Of a stretch of 64,000 nt of DNA, positions 1 through 3,241 are shown piece after piece. The position numbers were made by a program, and so were the translations under genes. The stretch is from Colwellia polaris (GTDB lineage: Bacteria; Pseudomonadota; Gammaproteobacteria; Enterobacterales; Alteromonadaceae): assembly GCF_002104515.1 (NCBI RefSeq), contig NZ_NBOE01000012.1:62001-126000 (forward strand), read 5' to 3'. The notes beneath the pieces were generated by a model that was given only the letters and a program-made list of their open reading frames with translations, ran no database searches and had not been told where the DNA came from. Numbering within the stretch: the stretch's first letter is position 1; each line of letters starts with the position of its first letter.

Positions 1-787
1 GTAGCATTGTTAGGGTGATTGTCCAAGATAAGACATAAGCAAACTGGCTTTCATAGAAAAAGGCGTAGCAATCAACAACAATCAGCAGTATTAATTGAAA
101 ATATATCCCACCTAAATCAACAACAGCACGCTGTTTTTGTGATAATCGCCATGCTTTAGAAACATCAGCATAAAATACAGGGAACACTATGTATATACCA
201 AAACCTATGCTGCCGTGCGGACAATTGAAGCGTTTACAAGCAGTTATATGGCCAAGTTCGTGAATAAAGTAACTCATTAGCATTGCCAGTAGAAACATGG
301 GGATGGTAGACATCGATATGCCGAGTGTTGCTGCATGGCTAATATTAGCGAAAAGCGAAAAGTGAACACAGATAAAAACAAGGGCGAGGGCTGCACTTAG
401 CCACTTATTAAATAATGGGGTCAATAAAACAGATAAGTACTTTAATATATACTCAGGTAACAGAGTCATACTAAATATAAAAGGGTTTCGTTGCGGAGGA
501 AGCTCCATATCTGCAAACAGCTCTTCGGGAATATGTTGGCGAGCCAGCGCGATAATGTCTTCTTCAGTAGCCTTGTAGCGAGTTTTTATAAAATAACTTT
601 CAACCAATGATTGACTCGAATTTTGATAAGTAAGTAAACTCTCAATTAATGATTTTACAGGTGCTGATACCACAAAGTTAAGATGTTCACATTGGATTAG
701 AAATTTATTGTTTTTCTCTTCTGGCGATGAAGCTGTCGTCAAAATAAATTCGCTAATTTCAATGTTTTGATGAAGTTGAATAGGCAT
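1..787 (-). CDS. M50-family zinc metallopeptidase with PqqD-like N-terminus, partial (RiPP maturation/export)
   Basis: The reading frame is open from an ATG at 787 to the window edge (262 codons, 3' end missing). I translated it by hand. Residues 1-100 are soluble and resemble the PqqD-like peptide-binding region fused to RiPP-associated M50 proteases, with an 'LIESLLTYQ' stretch like the winged-helix part. Membrane segments follow. The zinc motif HELGH lies at residues 176-180, followed by 'YADVSKAWRL' and 'VDLGGIYFQLI', the usual signature of the 'putative peptide zinc metalloprotease' group. It lies 56 bp downstream of the precursor-like gene at 844-978 on the same strand. The family commonly cuts or exports modified peptides at the inner membrane. 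The family call is firm; the substrate is inferred from adjacency. Confidence 0.82.
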   Translation of the reverse strand, partial: MPIQLHQNIEISEFILTTASSPEEKNNKFLIQCEHLNFVVSAPVKSLIESLLTYQNSSQSLVESYFIKTRYKATEEDIIALARQHIPEELFADMELPPQRNPFIFSMTLLPEYILKYLSVLLTPLFNKWLSAALALVFICVHFSLFANISHAATLGISMSTIPMFLLAMLMSYFIHELGHITACKRFNCPHGSIGFGIYIVFPVFYADVSKAWRLSQKQRAVVDLGGIYFQLILLIVVDCYAFFYESQFAYVLSWTITLTML

Positions 788-815
788 ATTAAGTTAATCA
801 GTAAGTGACAAAATT

Positions 816-835
816 GAGAGGGGGCGACCCCTCTC
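816..835 (-). terminator. GC-rich stem-loop between precursor gene and protease gene
   Basis: An 8-bp perfect stem (GAGAGGGG at 816-823 pairs with CCCCTCTC at 828-835) closes a 4-nt loop. On the minus strand it follows the precursor stop codon by 8 nt and is trailed by AATTTTG, a weak U-tract. It is probably a leaky terminator or an mRNA-stabilising hairpin that lets the precursor be made in excess over the downstream protease, a common arrangement in RiPP operons. Confidence 0.6.
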
Positions 836-843
836 GCTTTAAA

Positions 844-978
844 TTACCAAGTAACTTTACATTCGCAGCTTCCATCTGTTTCAGCGCCGCCATCATCAAC
901 GACTGCTTCCATTTCAAAACGTGCTTCTAAAGCTTCTACAGTATATTCAGTGTTTAGCTCATTTTTATCATTATTCAT
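844..978 (-). CDS. RiPP precursor-like peptide, 44 aa, double-glycine leader and Cys-containing core
   Basis: This small gene has a good ribosome site (AAGGAAAG, 4 nt before the ATG at 978). The product is 44 aa. Residues 1-29 are acidic and helix-prone (TEYTVEALEARFEMEAVVDD, residues 10-29), like a RiPP leader. A Gly-Gly pair at 30-31 would be a leader-cleavage site. The remaining 13 residues, AETDGSCECKVTW, hold a Cys-x-Cys motif (C38, C40) and a C-terminal Trp. It is followed by an M50/PqqD-like protease on the same strand. The precursor assignment rests on size, leader/core layout, GG motif and neighbour. I do not recognise the class, and the modifying enzyme would lie left of the window. 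Confidence 0.68.
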   Translation of the reverse strand: MNNDKNELNTEYTVEALEARFEMEAVVDDGGAETDGSCECKVTW

Positions 979-1600
979 GTGACTTTCCTTAATTTATAAT
1001 AATTTTAAGTTCATCGAAACGTCATTGCCTCGACCAAATTATGATTGCATCACGACAGAATAAAAAAAATAGTAAAAACACGCCAAGCCCTTTAAAAAAT
1101 GAGTCTGGCGATAAATTACAAGTAACAGTCAGAAAAATATTAGCTTTGTTAGGCAGCTATATTATTTAATAGCGCTAAGGATTTTTCGAATGTAAAAAAT
1201 TACAATCATATTTTTTACATATTTAATTTGAGCTGATGAAATGACCTTACTTTTAGACTTAGGAAATGAAATTCTTTTTCAAAAACTTATATTCTATTCA
1301 ATTAATATCTAGGTAATTAAGTGATTGCTGTGCATATTTATAATGAGGTTCTTGACAGAATTTTATAAACAGTGAGTTTTAGAGGTAATCTTATTAATAT
1401 ATAAGAGCCGATTTTTTTAAGCAGAAAAAACACCTTGGTAAGTGGTATTACTTGAGCATATTCTTTGTTTTCTTTGGTCGCTTTATTTATCGTAATAACA
1501 AGCTATACCTAACGATGAGTGCGGTTAAATAAATACGTTGTTGAAAACTTCTATCAAACTTAATGCATTTTTATACTTAGCCTTAATGGCACAATAGCGT
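979..1600. other. Intergenic region upstream of the peptide gene
   Basis: About 620 bp, very AT-rich, with no ORF having a convincing ribosome site on either strand. It must hold the promoter of the minus-strand precursor/protease operon and the 3' end of the AraC-type regulator transcript. I could not pick a convincing -35/-10 pair or operator by eye. Confidence 0.5.
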
Positions 1601-2095
1601 TTATATTAATGTTGTCGATTTGGGGGGATTTTTATTGTTTTTAACTAAGTACTCAGAAGGGGTACACCCGTAGTGCTCTTTAAAGCACTTACAAAAATAT
1701 GATGCCGATGAAAAGCCGCTCTCAAATCCAACTCTTTTAATTTGGAGGTTAGCATTCAGTCCTGTAACTGAGTGTTTTAGGCGTGATTTTTTTATTTCTT
1801 TACTTGGCGATGATTGATATGTTGCTTTAAATTTTCGTTGTAAACTACGTGGGCTTGAATTCAGCATAAGTGCAAGTTTTTCGGTGTTAAATTGAGGGTC
1901 ACAGTAATGCTCTGAAATCAAGACCATTGCAGCTTTAGTCAGTATTAAATCCTGTTCGCGCTCTTGGGTTAATTTATTATTCGATCTTTTAAAAAAGGTC
2001 TCCGTTACTGTATTCTCAAAGCGTTTTAGATTGAAAAAACTAAAAACCATAACTGATACAATACATAACGTAATAGTTAGCATTATACTTTCCAT
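1601..2095 (-). CDS. Membrane-anchored AraC-family transcriptional regulator, 164 aa
   Basis: Residues 5-20 form a hydrophobic helix (a signal anchor). A basic linker follows, then a C-terminal AraC-type double helix-turn-helix domain at about residues 55-150: 'NTEKLALMLNSSPRSLQRKFK' is the first HTH and 'RVGFESGFSSASYFCKCFKEHYGCTPSEY' is the family signature. The usual N-terminal cupin or sensor domain is replaced by one transmembrane helix, so the DNA-binding domain is predicted to face the cytoplasm from the membrane. It is 20 bp downstream of the XRE gene on the same strand and 620 bp before the peptide locus, which it might control (inference). Confidence 0.75.
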   Translation of the reverse strand: MESIMLTITLCIVSVMVFSFFNLKRFENTVTETFFKRSNNKLTQEREQDLILTKAAMVLISEHYCDPQFNTEKLALMLNSSPRSLQRKFKATYQSSPSKEIKKSRLKHSVTGLNANLQIKRVGFESGFSSASYFCKCFKEHYGCTPSEYLVKNNKNPPKSTTLI

Positions 2096-2115: not shown

Positions 2116-2346
2116 CTAATCTTGTTCCATTTCAGTGTTATTGTCTGCTTGATATTGCAAAATATCGCCAGGACAACAATCGAGTGCTTCGCATATAGCA
2201 TCTAAGGTGGTAAATCGAATTGCTTTAGCTTTACCACTTTTAAGTACGGATAAATTCTGTATCGTGATATCTATCTGTTTTGATAGATCTTTCAATTTCA
2301 ACTTTCGTTGAGCTAACATCACATCCAGATTGACAATTATTGCCAT
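2116..2346 (-). CDS. Cro/C1-type (YozG-like) small HTH regulator, 76 aa
   Basis: A compact XRE-family DNA-binding protein: 'MLAQRKLKLKDLSKQIDITIQNLSVLKSGKAKAIRFTTLDAICEALDCCPGDILQY' spans residues 9-64 as a full five-helix HTH domain. Its ATG overlaps the stop codon of the DUF2975 gene (TAATG), so the two are translationally coupled. DUF2975 membrane protein plus YozG-type XRE regulator is a recurrent bacterial pair of unknown physiological role; the regulator probably controls its own operon. Confidence 0.8.
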   Translation of the reverse strand: MAIIVNLDVMLAQRKLKLKDLSKQIDITIQNLSVLKSGKAKAIRFTTLDAICEALDCCPGDILQYQADNNTEMEQD

Positions 2347-2939
2347 TAGATAACTAAACCTTGTTCATCTTTCATGGTACAAGCCTCCTTCATAATTGAA
2401 GAGATCACTAAAATTACAGCACCCCAAATTAATTGAGTTAATTCGGCACTACCAAAGTAATAATTTACTTCAAGCTTAGGAAATTCAAATAATAAATTTA
2501 TGATGAATGAAACTGCAGAAGGCAGGAATATCATAACGATACCGTATGAAAACAAAGTGATTCCTATGAGTTGCAAATATCGACAACTTTGCGCCATAAA
2601 TATTTCGCCTTTTTCATATAAACAGAATAACTTGAAGAGAAAAAATAAGACGAATAGTTGGGCAATAAAATCAACAGTACCTAAAATCCAGAAACTATTT
2701 AGGCCAGAACTTTCAAGTGAACTCGCATAGCTTGACCACTTTTCACTAATGGCTGATAAATTGACATTATTATCACCGAAGCTTTGTTTTGATTGCACTG
2801 CATCGGAGTTAAGTCCAACAAAAAATAGAAAAACACTAATATGAATTGCTCCACCAATAAGGATCATCAACTTAGTAATTTTACTAAGTCGTATAATTCT
2901 ATGTATTGTTTGTGTTTTTTTACTATCTTTATCTGACAT
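2346..2939 (-). CDS. DUF2975 integral membrane protein
   Basis: It is predicted to have four transmembrane segments: around 'LMILIGGAIHISVFLFFVG', 'FWILGTVDFIAQLFVLFFL', 'YLQLIGITLFSYGIVMIFL' and 'ELTQLIWGAVILVISSIM'. The size and pairing with a YozG-type XRE gene fit DUF2975. I prefer the ATG at 2939 (MSDKDSKK) because the upstream extension starts at a TTG and is an artificial-looking poly-Ile run, but neither start has a strong ribosome site. The function is unknown; in similar pairs the membrane protein is thought to modulate the HTH partner. Confidence 0.75.
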   Translation of the reverse strand: MSDKDSKKTQTIHRIIRLSKITKLMILIGGAIHISVFLFFVGLNSDAVQSKQSFGDNNVNLSAISEKWSSYASSLESSGLNSFWILGTVDFIAQLFVLFFLFKLFCLYEKGEIFMAQSCRYLQLIGITLFSYGIVMIFLPSAVSFIINLLFEFPKLEVNYYFGSAELTQLIWGAVILVISSIMKEACTMKDEQGLVI

Positions 2940-3241
2940 TCTGATTGCTATAATTTTTTTAGTAATGATAATAATTATAATCAATAAAGATTTTAGGTCA
3001 ATTTATTTATCGTTTATCGATAAAAAATGCATGATAAACGTTTCTTTATGAAAGGGCATTAGGGGCAGTAAATTGCTATGTCTAGCATATGATTGGCGCT
3101 ATCGAAGCTAAGTTACCTGATCTAAAGTAAATAATTATCTAGTTGTTCTAGATGTATTCGGTTATTGAATATTTACCATTGAACGTGTAGTGAATAAAAT
3201 AATCAATATAAATAATAAGTTAAGTGCAATATTGATTAACA

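Follow-up and report, generated by a model that had tools for sequence, protein, structure and literature searches.

Ribosomally synthesized and post-translationally modified peptides (RiPPs) that carry lipids are already known. As described in the accessible parts of PMC13060382, the lipid-tagged ones use GNAT enzymes and most acylated-type clusters have an ABC transporter. Selidamides (phaeornamide, kamptornamide) and nostolysamides are ribosomal peptides with a fatty acid on a side chain and with NHLP or Nif11 leaders (PMC9505594 and PMC13060382, in the parts available); in the case of phaeornamide an arginase makes ornithine, which is then acylated by a GNAT (PMC9505594, same parts). Lipolanthines, goadvionins and lipoavitides are likewise RiPPs joined to fatty acids or polyketides but are class III lanthipeptides, acylated at the N-terminus by GNATs (PMC13060382, same parts), and a 2024 paper cited there deals with fatty acid synthases and N-terminal acylation of ribosomal peptides. 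In RiPP pathways, M50 proteases cut the leaders. According to the accessible parts of PMC10885120, the epipeptide protease EpeP (epipeptide EpeX; YydH/LiaK) is thought to export as well as cleave, though its deletion did not fully abolish the product, and an M50 protease also acts in the peptide-scaffold pathways of the pearlins (TglG, TmoG). Here we describe a locus at the left end of a 64,000-nucleotide stretch of the 4.43-Mb Colwellia polaris genome (contig NZ_NBOE01000012.1, positions 62,001 to 126,000 of the forward strand; hereafter the window), in which a 44-aa peptide gene is followed by genes for an M50 protease, a 282-aa protein and an LPLAT acyltransferase-family protein. This locus is very probably a RiPP-type cassette, and its product is probably acylated by the LPLAT. 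The genes concerned are listed below; L002 is a stretch extended to the left, and a window position is the L002 position minus 18000.

844..978, minus strand: precursor peptide gene, 44 aa, ATG start; leader motif VEALEARFEM, tail DGSCECKVTW
983..990, minus strand: ribosome-binding site AAGGAAAG of the precursor gene, read from the sequence, four bases 5' of the ATG
1..787, minus strand: 5' part of the M50 intramembrane protease gene, with an N-terminal putative leader-binding domain; runs left to L002:17555, 410 aa in total
L002:16710-17558: gene for the 282-aa protein, its start overlapping the M50 stop
L002:15736-16707: gene for the LPLAT acyltransferase-family protein, 323 aa; Pfam Lip_A_acyltrans 1.9e-14, above cut-off

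An earlier note, made from the window alone, had proposed a small gene with a good ribosome site at 844-978, followed by a membrane zinc protease, as the edge of a RiPP locus. Each of these points stands: the gene has 44 codons on the minus strand (full translation MNNDKNELNTEYTVEALEARFEMEAVVDDGGAETDGSCECKVTW), the ribosome site lies four bases ahead of the ATG, and the protease gene starts at 787, encodes HELGH and matches M50 families. The conservation of the small open reading frame (ORF) in related genomes, on which the note had made its case depend, was also found. Three other genomes encode peptides that share 77-91% identity with it, and small ORFs with a similar leader motif occur in 16 of 17 loci found through the protease (see below). 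The pN/pS of the precursor gene is 0.10-0.16 in four pairs among the window genome, L020, L019 and L021, with some 25 synonymous sites per pair. The same comparison gives 0.28-0.56 for the 282-aa protein and 0.16-0.31 for the LPLAT; in three of the four pairs the precursor value is lower than those of the other three genes (M50, 282-aa protein, LPLAT), and in the fourth it ties with LPLAT (0.16). The precursor gene is thus under purifying selection. A strict leader pattern, written only after the peptides had been inspected, matched once in the six-frame translation of the window, at 844-978, versus 0.02 matches expected. In an NCBIfam scan of nine precursors the sole match was to the Ktedonosporobacter precursor, under the cut-off.

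Eight cassettes were read: those of the window genome, L013/L020, L019/L048, L021, L022 (Mangrovimicrobium sediminis), L046, L047 and L052. All eight keep the order and strand of the M50, unknown and LPLAT genes. A precursor is visible in seven, L052 having two copies. The L046 contig stops 208 bases upstream of its M50 start; the sequence there is transposase-like by eye and shows no leader motif. The cassettes cover two GTDB families (f1 and f6) among the genomes handled, plus Mangrovimicrobium, which we take to be a third. Their distribution is rare and patchy: the L021 LPLAT was found in 6 of 395 genomes of the family at E <= 1e-40, LPLAT profile A6 in one of 369 genomes of the class (the window's own), and profile A11 in two of 394 genomes of the order and two of 398 of the phylum at E <= 1e-35, the same two in both cases. 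These counts include the window's own genome. The M50 was matched in 8 of 98 relatives and the 282-aa protein in two of the same 98.

The precursors have the layout of RiPP precursors, a short gene with a conserved leader and a distinct tail. The tail is DGSCECKVTW in the window genome and L020, DGSCECKITW in L019 and L021, EGWYSRCGYEVN in the Mangrovimicrobium peptide, NGWYCRCGWEPN in L047 and PDWKCTCTIEN in both L052 copies. By eye, one Cys is shared by all tails, the position two residues before it is Cys or Ser, and every tail holds one Lys or Arg. The tails contain Lys in five of the seven loci where a precursor is visible, and Arg instead in L022 and L047. The C-terminal residue is W or N. 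The pearlin idea, that the C-terminal Trp is added afterwards, was dropped: the Trp is gene-encoded, as is the whole tail, and relatives have Asn in its place. A Gly-Gly pair ahead of the tail had been taken as the cleavage site. It is present in the peptides of the window genome, L013/L020, L019 and L021, but this assignment is unsupported because the pair is lost in the distant relatives L022, L047 and L052. What does recur (by eye) immediately ahead of the Cys-containing tail is D/E/N-G or P-D.

The HELGH motif of the M50 protein is encoded within the window and FDGYW farther left on L002. The protein of the window genome gave sub-cut-off matches to Pfam Peptidase_M50 (E 6.1e-5, 22.9 bits, cut-off 27.2), to the NCBIfam daptide intramembrane protease model NF041824 (E 3e-31, 108.9 bits, cut-off 300) and to the YydH/LiaK model (57.9 bits, cut-off 225); the last two were matched by all five M50 members scanned. 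The PqqD-like/M50 layout read from the sequence held for the M50 part. For the PqqD part the evidence is indirect: a Pfam scan gave no PqqD match in the window genome's protein, the M50 of a Chryseobacterium relative (L025) has a weak, sub-threshold one (E 0.0014), and hhalign aligns the two M50 groups over their N-terminal regions. A search of genome contigs with the M50 alignment gave 17 M50-anchored loci. Small ORFs matching a loose leader pattern occur in 16 of these, every match lying on the M50 strand; the one locus without a match (L035) has a radical SAM gene. This pattern, also chosen once peptides had been inspected, matched none of 368 small ORFs of the window past base 2000 and 0.1 per 2256 shuffled ORFs.

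The third conserved gene is a modification-type gene. A model of the L020 orthologue of the LPLAT (pLDDT 63.7 overall, with several core blocks of ten above 80) has as its best structural matches LpxM of Acinetobacter baumannii (5knk, E 1.9e-9, TM-score 0.58) and PatA. A sequence search of the PDB with profile A6 gave nothing up to E 1. The cassette LPLAT is thus like the LpxL/LpxM lipid A acyltransferases in fold and Pfam family; unlike them, it lacks the acid of the HX4E motif, is clustered with peptide genes and scores below the cut-offs of all NCBIfam acyltransferase models that it matched. An alignment with the genome's own LpxL shows the motif His to be invariant. A hidden Markov model (HMM) of the cassette LPLATs finds the LPLAT-like proteins of T. 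loyana (5.9e-9) and Rugamonas fusca (5.2e-5) with better E-values than the genome's own LpxL (6e-4), and the cassette and T. loyana-type proteins are related by hhalign (probability 94.5). An LPLAT gene occurs in 9 of the 17 M50-anchored loci, namely L019-L022, L027 and L028 by the cassette HMM and L025, L029 and L031 by a T. loyana-type HMM. Plasmids searched with the LPLAT gave matches in four Rhizobium records, 26-30% identical over 55-63% of the query, which were taken as general LPLATs. The predicted fold of the 282-aa protein is of low confidence (pLDDT 42.9) and has no PDB match at E <= 0.001. From its strand order it was suspected of being a degenerate LPLAT paralog, an idea that found no support from hhalign (probability 0.1).

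Extending the contig leftward, as the earlier note had advised, turned up this modification-type gene and no exporter. Fifteen of the larger proteins of the left-hand 20 kb were scanned with Pfam and the other ORFs there were read by eye. The enzymes that had been suggested did not turn up: radical SAM, YcaO, LanM, MNIO and ABC/HlyD exporter matches were absent from the 15 scanned proteins (the remaining ORFs being read by eye only). In the search for a PEARL gene, the same 15 proteins gave no lanthipeptide-dehydratase-type match. Scans of the operon with Pfam and NCBIfam revealed neither a dehydrogenase, an aminotransferase or a methyltransferase gene nor a radical SAM one, and a scan of five operon proteins gave no GNAT match. 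The enzyme present, of LPLAT fold, points to lipidation, a modification that the earlier note had not suggested; the acyltransferase-family gene linked to the precursor, in all eight cassettes read, is of the Lip_A_acyltrans family and not the GNAT of the selidamides.

We consider it probable that the locus makes a lipidated RiPP, in which the M50 protein binds and cuts the leader and the LPLAT acylates the tail. The conserved leader and small ORF, the M50 related to RiPP proteases and the linked modification-type gene agree with the RiPP part of this proposal. The 44-aa gene would encode the precursor of a ribosomally made lipopeptide, and the M50 protein would bind its leader motif VExLExRxEM through the N-terminal domain. 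The LPLAT, perhaps with the 282-aa protein, would load the short Cys-containing tail with a fatty acid whose donor is probably an acyl carrier protein (ACP). The acceptor would be the thiol of a Cys, the side chain of Lys or the new N-terminus; Lys would be a natural choice in the five loci whose tails hold one, but since those of L022 and L047 do not, a Cys or the N-terminus may be used instead. The M50 would then remove the leader and may release the product as proposed for EpeP, in which case a separate exporter would not be needed, in keeping with the failure to find an evident one. Since lipidated RiPPs are already known, the new element would be an LPLAT in place of a GNAT and a short VExLExRxE leader in place of an NHLP or Nif11 one, and no new principle would be involved unless the LPLAT chemistry is unusual. 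Among the titles and abstracts found in the open-licence literature, none deals with a RiPP that has an LpxL/LPLAT enzyme, a weak negative since subscription papers lay mostly outside the search. If the proposal is right, an enzyme family known from lipid A synthesis has taken on the fatty acylation of ribosomal peptides. With only a few small genes in the operon and no evident exporter, this would be a compact route to gene-encoded lipopeptides; it would also supply a simple rule for genome mining (the leader motif together with an M50 that has a RiPP recognition element, RRE) and a test case for an LPLAT that works without its catalytic acid.

Several other features of the locus bear on how this proposal is weighed:

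816..835, minus strand: hairpin GAGAGGGG-TCGC-CCCCTCTC, attenuator-like, between the precursor and protease genes; z -3.13 against shuffles (computed on window positions 788-843), terminator-like match
L002:15301-15663: PDZ protein gene, a short gap after the LPLAT gene; PDZ match 4.6e-7, apparent signal peptide by eye
1601..2095, minus strand: AraC-type regulator gene; HTH_18 1.2e-18 on the C-terminal 132 aa, one N-terminal hydrophobic segment by eye
2116..2346, minus strand: gene for a small XRE-type helix-turn-helix (HTH) protein, a conserved upstream neighbor; XRE label by eye, NCBIfam matches only weak
2346..2984, minus strand: gene for an integral membrane protein, paired with the XRE gene; 70% (L013) and 60% (L021) identical

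A stem in the spacer between precursor and M50 genes appears in the minimum-energy folds of all seven loci where both genes are visible, the comparison with shuffles being for the window's spacer; such a hairpin would be in keeping with attenuation that leaves the precursor in surplus. The AraC-type gene lies 622 bases upstream of the precursor. Its homologs adjoin the cassette in L013, L019 and L021, and weakly in L052 (38% over 91 aa), making it a possible cluster regulator. The small HTH protein is 83% (L013) and 75% (L021) identical and has the same position there. With the membrane protein it forms a pair (2116-2984), a two-gene regulatory unit that the window genome, L013 and L021 all keep upstream of the cassette; the membrane protein, which had no NCBIfam match, we take to be DUF2975-like. 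The PDZ gene is found with the four SCECK-type loci, and tblastn finds no homolog in L022, L046, L047 or L052. The PDZ protein thus occurs only alongside peptides ending in V/I-T-W (L002:18844-18978 in the window genome), an ending that is a possible class II PDZ ligand, and it may bind the C-terminus of the product.

A number of observations weigh against a lipidated product or against the breadth of the evidence for it. No ABC transporter was found here, though one is typical of most known acylated-type clusters (PMC13060382, in the parts available). In all eight cassette LPLATs the Glu of HX4E is replaced by A, T or I after HYGPF (the genome's own LpxL has HYLSAE); the title of the 5knk entry names E127 as a catalytic residue, and the LPLAT-fold protein may not be an active acyltransferase because the usual catalytic Glu is gone in every case. 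Of the usual acyl acceptors (Lys, Cys, Ser, Thr) Cys alone is present in every tail. The LPLAT-like protein of Rugamonas is under the Pfam cut-off (15.6 versus 22.3 bits), and the 282-aa protein could not be assigned to a family (Pfam matched no family in more than one of eight members; best E 0.008). Support for an RRE in the M50 of the window genome itself is indirect, as noted. The first, stricter leader pattern matched 9 of the 17 M50-anchored loci, and among six further loci the loose one had no match in L015, L016 and L046, although the L015 peptides carry RLEKRFEF, which the strict pattern does find. Finally, the eight cassettes were found by M50 (five) or LPLAT (three) similarity, several are closely related and they are not independent; nor are the 17 loci, among which are three from Chryseobacterium, three Colwellia/Thalassotalea cassettes and two of another shared type.

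Could the product be a RiPP that carries no lipid? The LPLAT-fold protein would then be a non-catalytic binding or membrane-docking protein and the 282-aa protein would modify the C-x-C motif. The loss of the Glu in all eight cassettes fits this, as do the R, R and K seen by eye at the same position in the related LPLAT-like proteins of T. loyana (L014), R. fusca (L028) and Chryseobacterium (L025), and the Cys present in every tail. Set against it are the invariant motif His, the clear purifying selection on the LPLAT (pN/pS given above) and the clustering of fatty-acid genes with the LPLAT in L046 and L025, and we regard it as unlikely. We give as little weight to a signaling relay, in which a short membrane or periplasmic peptide is the signal and the M50 a site-2 protease; the periplasmic PDZ protein would bind the hydrophobic VTW/ITW C-terminus, a membrane-tethered AraC protein would read out the signal and the LPLAT would remodel lipids in response. 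Such a relay would explain the restriction of the PDZ gene to the four loci whose peptides all end in V/I-T-W, and the hydrophobic N-terminus of the neighboring AraC protein; the other subtypes, however, retain M50, unknown protein and LPLAT without a PDZ gene, and M50 relatives adjoin several peptide genes arranged in tandem, their tails being Cys-rich or variable.

Membership of a known class, a daptide or epipeptide in a proteobacterium, is very improbable. The relatives of the M50 are indeed the daptide and YydH/LiaK proteases, but its scores are under the model cut-offs, far under in the daptide case. Daptides have an invariant C-terminal Thr and MpaB/C/D/M enzymes, whereas the peptides here end in W or N and the operon holds no oxidative decarboxylation genes, nor the dehydrogenase, aminotransferase, methyltransferase or radical SAM gene looked for above; likewise no radical SAM epimerase of the epipeptide kind was found among the 15 proteins scanned in the 20 kb.

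The lipidated RiPP proposed for the window genome has possible counterparts among the relatives, in which nearby acyl-supply genes speak in its favor. In L046, ACP and FabF-type synthase genes adjoin the LPLAT gene. With Pfam, a ketosynthase or ACP gene close to the M50 could be confirmed in at least five of the 17 M50-anchored loci (L025, L029, L031, L026 and L033). Arginase and acyltransferase logic like that of the selidamides is seen in the T. loyana, Rugamonas and Chryseobacterium relatives, and these would follow the phaeornamide logic with another enzyme (compare the available parts of PMC9505594); the operon of the window's subtype has no arginase. We tentatively suggest a widespread, as yet unrecognized superfamily of RiPP lipopeptides that spans Proteobacteria and Bacteroidota and is marked by an RRE-M50 together with a V/I-E-x-L-E-x-R-x-E leader, in which an LpxL-derived enzyme may have shed its Glu on switching from sugar hydroxyls to peptide; some members would have a dedicated fatty acid synthase in the cluster and sister clusters would have terpene-type enzymes.

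The related clusters differ in composition. In the Chryseobacterium cluster (L025:38-10741; L029 and L031 are alike, as seen in part) the order is AMP-ligase, a phosphopantetheinyl transferase-like ORF (labeled by eye; no Pfam match), FabA-like, ketosynthase, FabG-like, ketosynthase, four precursors, M50, arginase, alpha/beta hydrolase and LPLAT, possibly a dedicated fatty acid synthase for a RiPP. T. loyana (L014:2861-8805) and R. fusca (L028:6518-10920) each have an RRE-M50, an arginase, an LPLAT-like protein and two precursors with C-[ST]-R-C-C tails; the former cluster additionally has a glutaredoxin and an HlyD-type protein, with a phosphopantetheinyl transferase nearby, and there is a FabG-like gene near the latter. 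An ORF of L028 taken by eye for a ketosynthase was dropped since it had no Pfam match. In two flavobacterial RRE-M50 loci (L026:4338-8510 and L033:6433-8143) the M50 gene is immediately preceded by an ACP gene and followed by leader-motif peptides; the stretches examined gave no LPLAT match. L023:5233-6678 and L024:5010-6582 are RRE-M50 loci with four and six tandem leader-motif ORFs with Cys-rich tails. A leader-motif RRE-M50 locus at L030:4130-5944 lies beside a squalene-hopene cyclase C-terminal domain (3.5e-13), and another at L032:5623-6552 has a weak, sub-threshold polyprenyl synthetase match; large proteins similarly placed in L023 and L024 had no Pfam match. A FabH-type gene of L032 was left out as a cluster gene since its strand is opposite to that of the M50. 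Among the eight cassettes the accessory genes follow the type of tail: besides the PDZ gene of the SCECK-type loci and the ACP and FabF-type genes of L046, a lipoprotein-like alpha/beta hydrolase gene is present only in L022, L047 and L052.

Beyond the PDZ gene of the window genome is a 733-aa protein without a Pfam match, and Pfam identifies TetR, a short-chain dehydrogenase, an alpha/beta hydrolase in two frames, an MFS transporter, LysR, a HigB-type toxin, FxsA and DsbD. The alpha/beta hydrolase gene (L002:12648-13539), haloalkane-dehalogenase-like by eye, is split into two overlapping frames, one of which matches Abhydrolase_1.
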